Assembly: GCF_004137855.1 (NCBI RefSeq)
Contig: NZ_QBKB01000002.1
Coordinates: forward strand, 1,437,368-1,501,367
Length of the DNA stretch: 64,000 bases
From: Methanohalophilus profundi
GTDB taxonomy: Archaea; Halobacteriota; Methanosarcinia; Methanosarcinales; Methanosarcinaceae
Reading direction: 5' to 3'
The notes under the pieces are model-generated. The model searched no databases, was not told the DNA's origin, and was given only the letters and a program-made list of their open reading frames with translations. A program made the position numbers and the translations under genes. Shown in pieces: positions 11,361 through 59,364 of the stretch (positions are counted from its first letter, which is position 1; each line of letters starts with the position of its first letter).

Positions 11361-12656
11361 CTGTTAAATATACATGTTGCAACCTTTGGCTGTACGGCCA
11401 ACCAGTCCTCTTCCGAGATCCTTGAGGCTAAAGCGGTGGATCTGGGCCACAGGCTTGTATCTGAAAGAGAAGCTGATGTGATCATATGCAACACCTGTAC
11501 AGTCAAGGATACTACAGAGCAGAAGATATTGCACAAGATCAAGGAATGGGGTCTTCAGGGCAGGGAAGTAATTGTCACAGGTTGCATGCCTCAGGTTCAA
11601 ATGGACGAAATATTAGAAAATAATCCCGAGGTTCATGTCCTGGGCATGAATTCCCTTCTTAAGCTCGGAGTAATTCTCAACCGGGTTCATGAAAGGCTGG
11701 GGGGACTCTCATTGAGGCCCATGAGTGTCTTTGATGATTCTCCTGAAGGTTTACTCAATGTGCCCCGCAACAGGTCCAGTCCGAATATCCATATCTGCCA
11801 GATATCACAGGGTTGCAATAACCGTTGTTCCTATTGTATTGTTACACTTGCCAGGGGTCCCCTTTACTCCTTTGATGCCGATTCAATCGTTACCGACATC
11901 GAGCAGGCTGTTTACGAAGGATGCAGTGAGATCTGGCTAACATCCCAGGACAATGCTCAGTATGGTTTGGATAAAGGTATTTATCTGCCTGCACTGCTTG
12001 AGAGGATTACTGCAATTCCTGGAGATTTCAGGCTACGTGTGGGTATGATGAATCCTGCTTCAACACTTGAAATTCTGGATGACTTGTTAGAGGCTTATTC
12101 AAGTGAAAAGATCTACAAAGTTTTACACCTTCCCATCCAGTCAGCTTCGGACAAAGTGCTTGACAGGATGAAACGCAAACATACAATGGAACAGGCAAAC
12201 ATTATAGTCGAAAAGTTCAGGGGTGCGTTTCCCGAAAGTACCCTTTTCACAGATATTATTGTGGGTTTTCCCGGGGAGGATGAGGAGGATTTCGAACTTA
12301 CGCTGGACTGGATTCGAACCTATCGCCCTGATAAGGTAAATATTTCACGTTACACACCAAGGCCGCACACTGAAGCATTGCAATTCAGAAATATAGATAC
12401 ACGTATCGTTGTGGAGCGTTCGGGCAAACTCCATCGTCTCTGTAATCAAATCAAACTCGGAAAAAAGGAAGATATGGTAGGAAGGGAAGTTGATGTATTC
12501 ATCTCACAACAGGCAAAGGTAAAAGGATTGATGTCCCGCACCGATTCTTATAAACCTGTTGTGATCCCTGAAGCAGGTGAATTTTGTCCGGGTCAACGTT
12601 GCAGGGTGAAGATAGAGGAAGCAACCCCTGGTTACTTTATCGGCCACCCTGTTTAA
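11361..12656 (+). CDS. tRNA t6A37 methylthiotransferase (e-MtaB/CDKAL1-like)
   Basis: About 431 residues. This radical SAM enzyme adds a methylthio group to t6A37 of tRNA. The N-terminal UPF0004 domain carries FGCTANQ, CNTCTVK and GCMPQ cysteines. The radical SAM CxxxCxxC is in CNNRCSYC. A TRAM domain closes the protein. No ATG, GTG or TTG precedes the conserved N-terminus in frame. The first candidate is CTG at 11361, eight bases after GGAG, so either a CTG start or a base error. The gene follows glpX by 15 bases and its end overlaps the convergent ClC gene by 20 bases. Confidence 0.87.
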   Translation: MLNIHVATFGCTANQSSSEILEAKAVDLGHRLVSEREADVIICNTCTVKDTTEQKILHKIKEWGLQGREVIVTGCMPQVQMDEILENNPEVHVLGMNSLLKLGVILNRVHERLGGLSLRPMSVFDDSPEGLLNVPRNRSSPNIHICQISQGCNNRCSYCIVTLARGPLYSFDADSIVTDIEQAVYEGCSEIWLTSQDNAQYGLDKGIYLPALLERITAIPGDFRLRVGMMNPASTLEILDDLLEAYSSEKIYKVLHLPIQSASDKVLDRMKRKHTMEQANIIVEKFRGAFPESTLFTDIIVGFPGEDEEDFELTLDWIRTYRPDKVNISRYTPRPHTEALQFRNIDTRIVVERSGKLHRLCNQIKLGKKEDMVGREVDVFISQQAKVKGLMSRTDSYKPVVIPEAGEFCPGQRCRVKIEEATPGYFIGHPV

Positions 12657-14379
12657 GATTATCATCTTCACCGGTTTGCATTCTGTTAACTATTTCCCGG
12701 TCATAGGATTTCACGATATCACTGCGGGTTATTATTCCGATCAGGCTTATTCCATCATTTCTGGAGACAACAGGTAATCTGCCCACATCATGTGCTGCCA
12801 GTCTTTTTAGTACTATGTCAAGAGATTCATCAGGATACGCAGTAGCAACATTTTTAGTCATTATTTGAGTGACCGGTTTTTCCAGTTCCCCCTGCTCTAC
12901 TTTATCGCGCATGTCATGCAGGGTGACAATTCCTGCAATTTTTCCCTAGTTGTCAAGTACCGGGAAACCTGCATGTTTGCTTTTTTGCATTAGATTTAGA
13001 AGATTGGCAGTTGTATCTTTTACATTAAGGAATAACACATCTCTTACCATATTATCCCTGACATTCAGTGATTCCATAACATTTACCTCGGTGCCGGCCC
13101 TGATGACGTGCCCTCTTCTCCTGAGCAATTCTGTAAATATCGATTCTTCATGAAGGTGAGTTGATATTACATTGCTGATCACACAGGCCAACATGAGGGG
13201 CAGGATAAGGTTGTAATCACGGGTAAGTTCAAAAAGAATAAGCATGGCAGTCAGGGGTGCACGTACCACTCCCGCAAAGACTGCCCCCATACCTACAAGG
13301 GCATATGCTCCCGCAGGTGCTGTATAAAAAGGAAAAATATAATTCACCAGATTTCCAAAACCCCCTCCCAGCATAGAACCTGCAAAAAGGGACGGGACTA
13401 TAACTCCCCCCGAACCTCCGGAACCAACTGTGAAGGCAAATGCCACAATTTTAAGGACAAGCAGTATCAACAGCATCTGCAGGGCAAGTTCGTTGTTGAG
13501 GGATTGCTTGATAACATCGTAGCCGATTCCGAATATCTGCGGATAGAAATAACCGATACACCCGACTACAAGTCCTCCAAGTGCAGGTTTCACGTAGGGT
13601 TTGACAGGAACTTTTTCAAATGAATCCCGGGTAAGGTATGTAAATTTTATGAATATTGCAGCAGCAATTCCTGAAAGAACGCCCAGGATGATGTATAGTG
13701 CTGGCTCGTGAAACGGGCTCTCCATACCGTAATAGGAAACCTGTATGGGCTGGATACCAAAAACGATGTCCGTTACAAGGGTAGAGAACACTGAAGAAAG
13801 AACTATCGGTATAAGTGTCTTGGCCTGTAATTCCCCGAGAATTACCTCTACTACAAAAACCACCCCGGCAAGAGGGGCATGAAATGCCGCTGCAATTCCT
13901 CCAGAAGCCCCGCAGGCAATCAATGTCCTGAAACGGTGATCCGGACTTTTCAGCCGGCTGCCTACCGTGGCTCCCACACCGGCTCCCGCGAGAATACCGG
14001 GAGCTTCTTTGCCCACCGATCCTCCTGTACAGATTGAGATCATTGAAAGGAATACTTCATAAAAAGCAAATTTACTCTTTATCTTCCCGCCCTGAAGAGC
14101 TGTTGCTTCCATTACCTCTGCAACTCCACAACGACTTTTTCTCATAAATTTATGGGATATCAGGCCAACGCATAATCCTCCTGCAGCCGGAAGGAGGATG
14201 ATATATTTAGGAAGGTTACTATCCGGGGCATTGAAAAAAAGGGTTGTAAAGTAAAAGGTAACCTGATCATAGGCTACAAAAGCCAGGCCTGTTATTATTC
14301 CTATTATTATGGCAAGGAAATTAGAAATGAACCCTTCGGTGTAATACCGATTCTTTAACTCGTTTTTGGAAATATTCAA
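12637..14379 (-). CDS. ClC-type chloride channel/antiporter with C-terminal CBS pair, in-frame TAG
   Basis: About 580 residues when the TAG at 12946-12948 (coding strand 12948-12946) is read as an amino acid. The membrane part has ClC signatures: GSVGKEAPG near residue 120 and GSGGSGGVIVPSLF near 318. Two CBS domains follow. The TAG falls inside the first CBS domain, between VLDN and GKIAGIVTLHD, where relatives carry a charged residue, and the frame is unchanged on both sides. It may encode pyrrolysine. Termination there would remove most of the CBS pair. The start is TTG at 14379 with a weak ribosome site. Confidence 0.85.
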
Positions 14380-42308: not shown

Positions 42309-44205
42309 ATGCAATTATTGCTTATCCATTCCGATTATATTGAATACGAAGTGAAAAAAAAGTACTCCTGTTGCAGAGCAAATAGAGGATTCATTCAAAA
42401 AAGGTAGACTAGATGAAGCTTTGACCGTTTTTATAGCGGTGGAAAGTACTGATGAAGCAAACCCGAAAGATGTGGCTGAAAAGGCAGTTGCTGAGATCAA
42501 AAAGACTGCATCCCAGGTAAATACAGACAATGTAATGCTGTATCCTTATGCCCATTTAAGTTCCGACCTTTCTTCCCCTAAGATGGCGGTTTCTGTAATG
42601 AAGGATATTGAAAATAGCCTTATTGATTCATTTAATGTCAAACGTGCTCCTTTTGGGTGGTACAAAGCATTCAAAATCAGTTGCAAAGGGCATCCTCTCT
42701 CAGAACTTTCCCGAACTATCAACCCGGAAAGCGAATCATGTGGCGAAGGCGTAGATACAGAGGAAGAAGTTGTATCTGAAGCCCTGAAAGCCGAAAGTAC
42801 GGCCAAATCTTACTGGAAGGTCCTGTCTCCGGACGGTGTTCTACATGATGTTGATGATTTCAATTTCAATGATCATGAGAATTTAGGTACCTTTGTAGAT
42901 CATGAAATCTCCAAAAGCAGGGCTGTGGAAAAGGTTCCTCCTCATGTTGAATTGATGCGCAGGCTTGAGATTGCTGATTATGAACCCGGGTCTGACTCCG
43001 GTAACATGCGTTATTATCCCAAAGGCAGGCTGATCAAATCCCTGCTTGAGCGGTATGTGCTGGATTCTTCTGCCAGGGAAGGAGCAATGGAAGTAGAAAC
43101 ACCTTTGATGTACGATATGAACCACCCTACACTCAAAAAATACCTGGACAGGTTCCCTGCACGTCAGTATTCAATCGAATCCGACAAACGCCAGATGTTT
43201 TTGAGATTTGCTGCATGCTTTGGCCAGTTCCTGATGAGTCATGATATGACCATCTCCCACCACAACCTCCCGATGAAAATGGTGGAACTTACACGTTACA
43301 GTTTCCGTAAGGAACAGAGGGGTGAACTGGTGGGCCTGCGCAGGTTGCGGGCTTTTACCATGCCGGATATGCATACAATGTGTGGCGATATGGACCAGGC
43401 TGTTGAACAGTTCGGTCGTCAGTACCAGATGTCAATAGATGTGTTGAAAGATGTCGGAATCGATGTTTCCGATTATGAAGTTGCAATCAGGCTAACCCGG
43501 GACTTTTATGAGGAGAACAAGGAATTTATCACTGCTCTTGCAAAGAAAGTCAATAAACCTGTTCTTGTGGAAATGTGGGAGAAACGTTTCTTCTACTTTG
43601 TGCTCAAGTTCGAGTTCAATTTTGTGGATGCCCTGAAAAAGGCAAGTGCGCTTTCCACAGTCCAGATAGATGTGGAAAATGCAGAACGATACGACATTAA
43701 GTATATCGACCAGGCAGGGGAAGCTAAAAGACCTGTCGTATTGCATTGTTCACCCAGCGGAGCAATTGAACGCTGTATTTATGCCCTGCTGGAAAAAGCC
43801 TCGATGAAGGCTGAAGGTGGAGAAGTCCCGATGCTTCCGGTCTGGTTATCACCCACACAGGTCAGGATCATACCCATTGCAGAGCGACATATGGAATTTG
43901 CCGAAGAGATTGCATCACGTCTTCAGTGTCGGGCGGATATAGATGACAGGGAAGAAACAGTTGGCAAGAAGATACGTAATGCAGGACAGGAATGGGTTCC
44001 CTATGTGGTAGTTGTCGGGGACAGGGAAGTCGAAAGCGGTAATGTCAATGTCACTGTGAGGGAAGAATCTAAACCAAAGAAGCCTTCCAAGATTGAGATG
44101 TCCGTGGATGAACTCAACAGCCGCATTCTTGCAGAGACTGCCGGGATGCCTCAGGGTCACCTGCCTCTTGCACAAAAACTTAGCATGAGACCAAGATTCA
44201 TATAA
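42309..44205 (+). CDS. thrS: Threonyl-tRNA synthetase, archaeal type (one frameshift)
   Basis: About 631 residues when one A is removed from the eight-A run 42354-42361. The first 17 residues ([17 protein letters not shown]) then join the rest. The N-terminal 140 residues are the archaeal D-tyrosyl deacylase-like editing domain ([10 protein letters not shown]). The class II core has [17 protein letters not shown] and [13 protein letters not shown], and an anticodon-binding domain begins near residue 520 ([13 protein letters not shown]). The enzyme is essential, so the break is most likely an insertion error. Confidence 0.92.
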
Positions 44206-44226: not shown

Positions 44227-44505
44227 ATGGATATGGAACGCGCAATAATACATGTATCCGGTGTTGTGCAAGGTGTTTTCTTTCGCTCCTTTACCATGCA
44301 GAAAGCATCCGACATCGGACTTACCGGTTATGTGGTAAACCTCACGGACGGCAGGGTTAAAGCTGTTGTCGAAGGTAGCAAGGGAAAAATAGATGCCCTG
44401 TTGAATGCTCTCAAATAGGGCCCTCCGGCATCCCAGGTCAGAGATGTCGAAATAGTTTGGGAGTCACCAACAGGCGAATTTAATGATTTCAGTATCAGGA
44501 GATAA
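44227..44505 (+). CDS. acyP: Acylphosphatase with in-frame TAG
   Basis: 92 residues if the TAG at 44416-44418 is read through. VQGVFFRSFTMQKA near residue 14 holds the phosphate-binding loop and the catalytic arginine. GYVVNLTDGRVKAVVEG follows with the catalytic asparagine. After LLNALK the TAG occurs, and the same frame goes on with GPPASQVRDVEIVWE and a normal family end at TAA 44503-44505. No indel is needed. The TAG replaces a position usually filled by a charged residue. Stopping there would remove the last 29 residues, including the final strand of the fold. Confidence 0.87.
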
Positions 44506-46101: not shown

Positions 46102-46597
46102 TTAAATGTAGTGGAACAATTCAACTTGTTTTTCCTCAATTGTTATTTCCATGTATACCTGGGCAATTGATGCACTTGCTATAGGCTTTGTATCAATTTC
46201 ATCAAAATATCCCAGCACCTGTTCCATTGATATTTCAGGTTCACCGTTCTGGGTGCCCGGTATTGCACATTGCAGGCTTGAAAAGGAAGGCAGCATCTGT
46301 TCAAACTCAAGGGGTTTTACGCGGTCCTGCAGATTTGCCAGTTCCCTTATGTAACTCTGGGGGCAGGATATCGGACCTTTTACTCATTATTTGGCCCAAT
46401 TTAACAAAAGTAGGTCCCAATTCCTAAAAAGCAAGTCGCATTCTGCGGGCATTGTGCTGGTTCTCAACATCGAGATAACAGGTACCACGTCTACCGGGTA
46501 TGTAGTTGCGATTTATTTCTTTATATAGAAGACTGAAAAGATTATATTTTGTAGAAATCCTGAGAATTTCCAGATATCTGCGAACCTTTTTTAGCAT
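46102..46597 (-). pseudogene. Remnant of an ABC1/AarF/UbiB-like kinase
   Basis: The minus strand from ATG 46597 reads like the N-terminus of an AarF/UbiB protein. It shows NYIPGRRGT, an in-frame TAG at 46424-46426, then ELGPTFVKLGQIMSKRSDIL, a one-base insertion near 46353, the LANLQDRV segment, and IDTKPIASASIAQVY. The reading then diverges and ends at 46102, about 165 residues in and far short of the 500 or so usual. The kinase core is missing, so the gene is decayed. The TAG here is weak evidence for recoding because the gene is broken anyway. Confidence 0.75.
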
Positions 46598-58430: not shown

Positions 58431-58742
58431 ATGGAATTTATTATTGTTTATATCACAACTTCAGGTACAGTTGAGGCACGCAATATAGCATCCGAGTTAG
58501 TTTCCAGAGGTCTTGTCGCCTGCGTGAATATGTATCCTATAAGATCGGTTTTTATGTGGGAGGGAGAAGTAAACGAGGACGATGAAGTCGTCCTTTTTGC
58601 CAAAACGACCAAGAACAATTTTGAACCTGTACGAGAGTTTGTGCGCAGCATACACAGTTATGAGTTACCTGCAATTGTTTCATGGGATATTGAGGCAGAT
58701 CCTGTATTTTTGGAATGGATCAGGACATCGGTATCTAATTAA
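58431..58742 (+). CDS. cutA: Divalent cation tolerance protein CutA
   Basis: 103 residues; small trimeric protein of the PII-like fold. The signature [20 protein letters not shown] covers residues 28-47, followed by the [10 protein letters not shown] helix and the [13 protein letters not shown] strand. The length is typical. Its role in metal tolerance in archaea is unproven. Its end overlaps the convergent cofC by 8 bases. Confidence 0.92.
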
Positions 58743-59364
58743 AGGGGCTTATTTTCACCCTTCCTTTACCTTCCTTTTTACCGAATCTTTTTTCGGCATA
58801 ATCCTTTGCAATTCCCTGTCCATGTAATAGGAGTTCTGTAATATCCTGTGGTTCATCAATATCCGTACTTGCAAGGAATGAATCATATACCCGAATAGAG
58901 AGTTTTTGTTGTGCGGCAATCATGCAGTGATTCTCAAAACTTGAACCGTAGTATTTGACCCTGAAATTCTCAGGTTTGCGGATGAACAGTATATTTGTGC
59001 CGCCTCCCTTGCCCGGAACGATTGTCATATCCGCTTTACTCGCTACTATATCTTTTATATGACTGAATTTCACAAGGGGCAGATCCGCCATAATGATCAG
59101 TATCGGCTCTTCCTTTTGAGAGAGATATTTATTCAAACAATCGTTGAGGTCCGTGTCATCCTCAATTATATTTGCTTTTACTTCCCTTTTCACGTCACAG
59201 GCTTTGGGGGTGATTATATCTATATTCAGAATCCCACCTTTCCTTAAAGTTGCAACAACATCCAGAAGCATCTTTTCGACAAAGGTTTCCCTCTGCTCCT
59301 TTGTCATAACAGTTGAAAGCCTGGATTTGGCATTTTCCTTTTTGTAGGGAATTACTGCTCTCAT
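58735..59364 (-). CDS. cofC: 2-phospho-L-lactate guanylyltransferase CofC
   Basis: 209 residues. It activates 2-phospholactate with GTP for coenzyme F420 assembly. The N-terminal [14 protein letters not shown] is the nucleotide-binding loop of this transferase family, IIMADLPLV near residue 90 supplies the metal aspartate, and GGGTNILFI near 120 closes the site. It is the last gene of cofG-cofH-cofH-cofC, and its start overlaps the cofH stop by 4 bases. Confidence 0.9.

Follow-up and report, generated by a model that had tools for sequence, protein, structure and literature searches.

Known and proposed pyrrolysine codons outside methylamine metabolism

An archaeal genetic code in which all TAG codons specify pyrrolysine was reportedly described in about 2025. 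Two single genes also offer parallels to the locus considered here. The tRNA-His guanylyltransferase Thg1 of Methanosarcina acetivorans contains a pyrrolysine that, in the account of Heinemann 2009 given in PMC2933860, arose "by neutral evolution", and the citrate synthase gene of Methanohalophilus mahii has an amber codon for which pyrrolysine has been proposed (PMC3017947). The window analysed here is a 64-kb stretch of another Methanohalophilus genome, G000 (G000:C2:1437368-1501367, in a 1.83 Mb assembly), which contains an acylphosphatase gene with a single in-frame TAG (Table 1). We think it probable that this TAG is real, is decoded as pyrrolysine and is neutral. A paper search on pyrrolysine and acylphosphatase found nothing relevant.

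Table 1. Features of the window, numbered from its first letter
Feature	Position	Strand	Details
Acylphosphatase gene	44227..44505	+	92 codons with TAG as sense; ATG 44227, TAA 44503-44505
In-frame TAG, codon 64, putative pyrrolysine codon	44416..44418	+	ORF reading, genus-mate alignment
CLC chloride channel with CBS domains	12637..14379	-	TAG 12946-12948, codon 478
Gene with TAG four codons before TGA	58720..59364	-	TAG 58735-58737
One- or two-base indels relative to relatives	5824, 18011, 25150, 26795, 29268, 31990, 42357, 46361, 46921, 47589, 47741, 52503, 53375, 60816

The acylphosphatase gene and its codon 64

The acylphosphatase gene lies directly 3' of a thrS-like (threonyl-tRNA-synthetase-like) gene that ends at 44205. 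The initial annotation placed the TAG within the acylphosphatase frame, with a normal end at 44505, and both the open reading frame and the PF00708 (Acylphosphatase) match bear this out. The frame continues past the TAG for 28 further codons before its TAA, and the match extends to both sides of the codon, spanning residues 8-90 of the read-through product (E 4.7e-27). The locus thus has the pattern of a pyrrolysine gene, an in-frame TAG followed by same-frame homology onward to a normal stop. A whole-genome Pfam search of G000 recovered it as the single acylphosphatase match (E 2.9e-26, with 1 TAG inside). Family score, catalytic Arg and Asn, and alpha/beta fold all place the product among the acylphosphatases. 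R20 and N38, the catalytic residues of the family, are unvarying across the alignment, and both are N-terminal to the TAG, as the initial annotation had it.

The predicted structure of the read-through product (pLDDT 95.5) has the classical acylphosphatase fold and superposes on solved acylphosphatases with a TM of 0.93. In this model, residue 64 is the final residue of helix 2 (52-64). The expectation that truncation at the TAG removes the last strand holds, but two strands follow the codon (70-79 and 88-90), not one. A 63-residue product would lack both and therefore should not fold.

Among named loci, the closest acylphosphatases are those of Methanohalophilus sp. RSK (96% identity) and M. 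euhalobius (92%). Comparison of orthologous codons had been put forward as a check on the initial annotation, and in all seven genus mates searched position 64 is a sense codon: CAG in G001 and G003, GAG in G006 and G007, GAA in G004, and ACA in G002 and G005. TAG occurs in G000 only. Across the order the residue at this position is almost free. The gene is intact in every genus mate searched, and the rest of the G000 protein matches theirs with no second lesion; there is therefore no further sign of gene decay. The hexamer GGCCCT (Gly-Pro) stands directly 3' of both the acylphosphatase TAG and the mtmB TAG (44416-44424 and L049:13340-13348, each spanning TAG and hexamer). This is probably a coincidence, as G003 has GGCCCT after its CAG too.

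Pyrrolysine machinery and the use of TAG as a stop

The G000 genome contains an intact pylT-S-B-C-D cluster, as expected of a host of pyrrolysine genes. ARAGORN identifies a tRNA-Pyl with anticodon CTA, the sequence of which is the same in five genus mates. It is followed by pylS, which scores 370 bits against its NCBIfam model, above the family cut-off and without a stop, and by open reading frames assigned to pylB, pylC and pylD from gene order and sequence reading. A single in-frame TAG is also present in each of the genome's mtmB, mtbB and mttB genes. UAG is therefore decodable as pyrrolysine in this organism. The genome encodes one full-length aRF1, together with a second weak, partial match under the cut-off, in line with the single release factor of M. 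mahii (PMC2933860). A PYLIS-like structure after the UAG is non-essential (PMC3639795, PMC2933860).

TAG usage was compared with that of G003, the single-contig genome of a sister species. There (872 kb, called genes of at least 100 codons) TAG is, pylB excepted, almost unused as a terminator: it ends 10 of 728 genes, against 356 for TAA and 362 for TGA, and several of the ten clearly run on past the TAG. G000 has 49 genes that apparently end in TAG, and alignment shows those with a G003 counterpart to be mostly indel artefacts, true internal TAGs or shared TAGs. Together these counts indicate that TAG scarcely serves as a stop in the genus, pylB being a conserved apparent exception. A nearby back-up stop behind the TAG-ended G000 genes was considered and rejected, given that the G003 alignment shows mostly frameshift artefacts. 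A comparison of coding potential beyond TAA or TGA with that beyond TAG was dropped, confounded by same-frame neighbouring genes.

The apparent end of pylB is a TAG just before the pylC start in six Methanohalophilus genomes (L005:7321-7323), and read-through would add 39 residues. pylB ending at TAG has also been noted in other species (PMC2933860). Through this terminal TAG, pyrrolysine supply could possibly feed back on PylB. Its retention in six members of the genus suggests that UAG may not be read through everywhere.

Other interrupted genes

The initial annotation counted the acylphosphatase gene as the second gene in the 64 kb to be intact apart from a TAG. We agree, the other being the CLC/CBS gene, in which the TAG site is Gln (CAG) in G003 and G006 and has no stop in G001 and G004. 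That such defects are never TAA or TGA is true of the intact-frame genes within the window; elsewhere in the genome, four TAA codons and one TGA interrupt conserved genes. One- or two-base indels disrupt many other genes in the window. The TAG at 46424 (minus strand) was not counted as a case in an intact gene, since it falls in what is left of a gene whose G003 copy is full length and which is unaligned in G006 and G007. The TAG at 58735-58737 is the same in G003 and is replaced by GAG in G006 and G007.

Outside the window, an acetolactate-synthase-like gene (L050:9524-11221) has an in-frame TAG at codon 209 in G000, where four genus mates have CAG and a fifth CGG. A TPR-like protein gene has two internal TAGs common to G000 (C2 near 1721700) and G003 (C1 near 606100). 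Being common to both genomes, these are not errors of one assembly, and they show TAG within ordinary genes to be real in the genus.

Assembly error, nonsense mutation or pyrrolysine

The most serious alternative is a sequencing or consensus error, in which case codon 64 is really CAG in an ordinary acylphosphatase gene. We regard this as distinctly less probable than a real pyrrolysine codon, though a substantial concern in an assembly of this kind. Local alignments with relatives reveal 14 indels of one or two bases across the window; these alignments replaced a first indel scan that placed gaps differently and missed most of them. The indels are mostly deletions in short runs and break leuS-like, hisB-like, thrS-like and other genes, several of which are expected to be essential. 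Aligned with G003, G000 shows 128 frameshift junctions in 225,499 residues, compared with 17 in the reverse direction, and G000 changes at codon positions 1 and 2 are in slight excess (0.328, against 0.28-0.31). Both excesses make base errors possible as well. The stated completeness of G000 is only 90%, even though one contig reaches 1.82 Mb. The assembly is error-rich: its indel errors are numerous, and some base errors are probable.

Codon 64 does not resemble the errors that can be seen. These are mainly one-base deletions in short runs, whereas the codon differs by a clean substitution with no indel nearby. Nor do the interruptions as a whole have the composition that base errors predict. 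Where G003 has sense, G000 has 14 clean in-frame interruptions by TAG (including two made doubtful by their position close to a start or within a 5' extension) against four by TAA and one by TGA (after exclusion of a local double frameshift and of an open reading frame full of stops). From the substitution spectrum, a TAG share of about 38% is expected; 14 of 19 departs from this at p ~0.002, and 12 of 17 at p ~0.006. No shared motif, which might have hinted at systematic base error, was found around the TAG sites in a check by eye. The TAA and TGA cases go beyond what pyrrolysine explains, and if all of them are errors, the same should hold for about three of the 14 TAGs. The opposite comparison is harder to reconcile, G003 having only one unshared TAG against the 14 of G000. 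Equal rates of neutral evolution would not lead to this, so either G000 gains TAGs faster than G003 or its errors exceed the estimate of about three in 14.

A true nonsense mutation appears unlikely. In this case UAG would mostly terminate, leaving an unfolded 63-residue product, and a dispensable acylphosphatase gene would be beginning to decay. In its favour, UAG was reported to act as a sense codon as well as a stop in M. acetivorans, where a reporter was read through at 20-30% (PMC2933860), pylB retains a terminal TAG, and the citrate synthase gene shows decay among members of the genus, one of which has a TAG in it. Set against this, the acylphosphatase gene has no other lesion, G003 makes almost no use of TAG as a stop, and a TAG is carried likewise by several genes that the cell presumably needs, acetolactate synthase among them. 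That pyrrolysine 64 has a selected function, or ties acylphosphatase level to pyrrolysine supply, is very improbable: only this decodable codon within an intact gene speaks for it, and the TAG, present in G000 alone, occupies a position that varies freely and lies apart from the catalytic residues.

We therefore favour a neutral pyrrolysine codon. In a recent ancestor, the Gln codon CAG at position 64 would have mutated to TAG. The cell makes pyrrolysine and would charge tRNA-Pyl(CUA) with it; because this charged tRNA is available and termination at UAG is rare in the genus, insertion of pyrrolysine would prevail over termination and the ribosome would continue to the TAA. If the base is correct, the product would be a full-length, probably active acylphosphatase whose helix 2 closes with a pyrrolysine that would have no special job. 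That the TAG is translated, as the initial annotation implied, gains support from the pyl cluster, the pyrrolysine methyltransferases, the rarity of TAG stops and the excess of TAG over TAA and TGA, while sequence error continues to weigh against it. A broader reading is more tentative. UAG might be in effect a pure sense codon in this Methanohalophilus lineage, with pyrrolysine spreading neutrally, and faster than in the sister species, through housekeeping proteins that would include acetolactate synthase, the CLC channel, an aminoacyl-tRNA-synthetase-like protein, acylphosphatase and others.

Comparison with known systems

If the favoured interpretation is correct, a small, easily assayed housekeeping protein joins the few thought to carry a non-catalytic pyrrolysine and illustrates how a reassigned codon can spread by drift. 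It also bears on annotation, where such genes get called truncated or pseudogenes. As an error-rich assembly can imitate an in-frame TAG, read support must come first.

The G000 acylphosphatase gene shares with mtmB, mtbB and mttB an in-frame TAG and the same pyl system. In those methyltransferases pyrrolysine is catalytic and conserved, whereas the acylphosphatase site is variable and has its TAG in one genome. The code in which TAG always means pyrrolysine is reportedly similar in that TAG is nearly absent as a stop and occurs inside ordinary genes.

M. mahii citrate synthase offers an example from the same genus, where a metabolic gene is likewise intact apart from an in-frame UAG. Citrate synthase is full length in G003 and G005, and full length with one TAG in G007 (L202, G007:C1:499583-500647). 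The search recovered no more than C-terminal remnants from G000 (L203, G000:C2:655907-656137), G001, G004 and G006, and gave no match in G002. In the light of these sequences, the published case for read-through of citrate synthase, namely that the cell cannot do without the enzyme, appears weak. With such remnants in the genus, decay is a live rival for citrate synthase, whereas acylphosphatase is intact in all genus mates searched.

Thg1, as described in PMC2933860, is similar in having a single in-frame TAG in one species with sense codons in relatives, no relation to methylamine use, and a full set of pyl machinery. It differs in gene and genus, and its pyrrolysine has been physically observed, while that of acylphosphatase is deduced from sequence. 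Acylphosphatase is most likely a further member of the kind represented by Thg1 and by the proposal for M. mahii citrate synthase.
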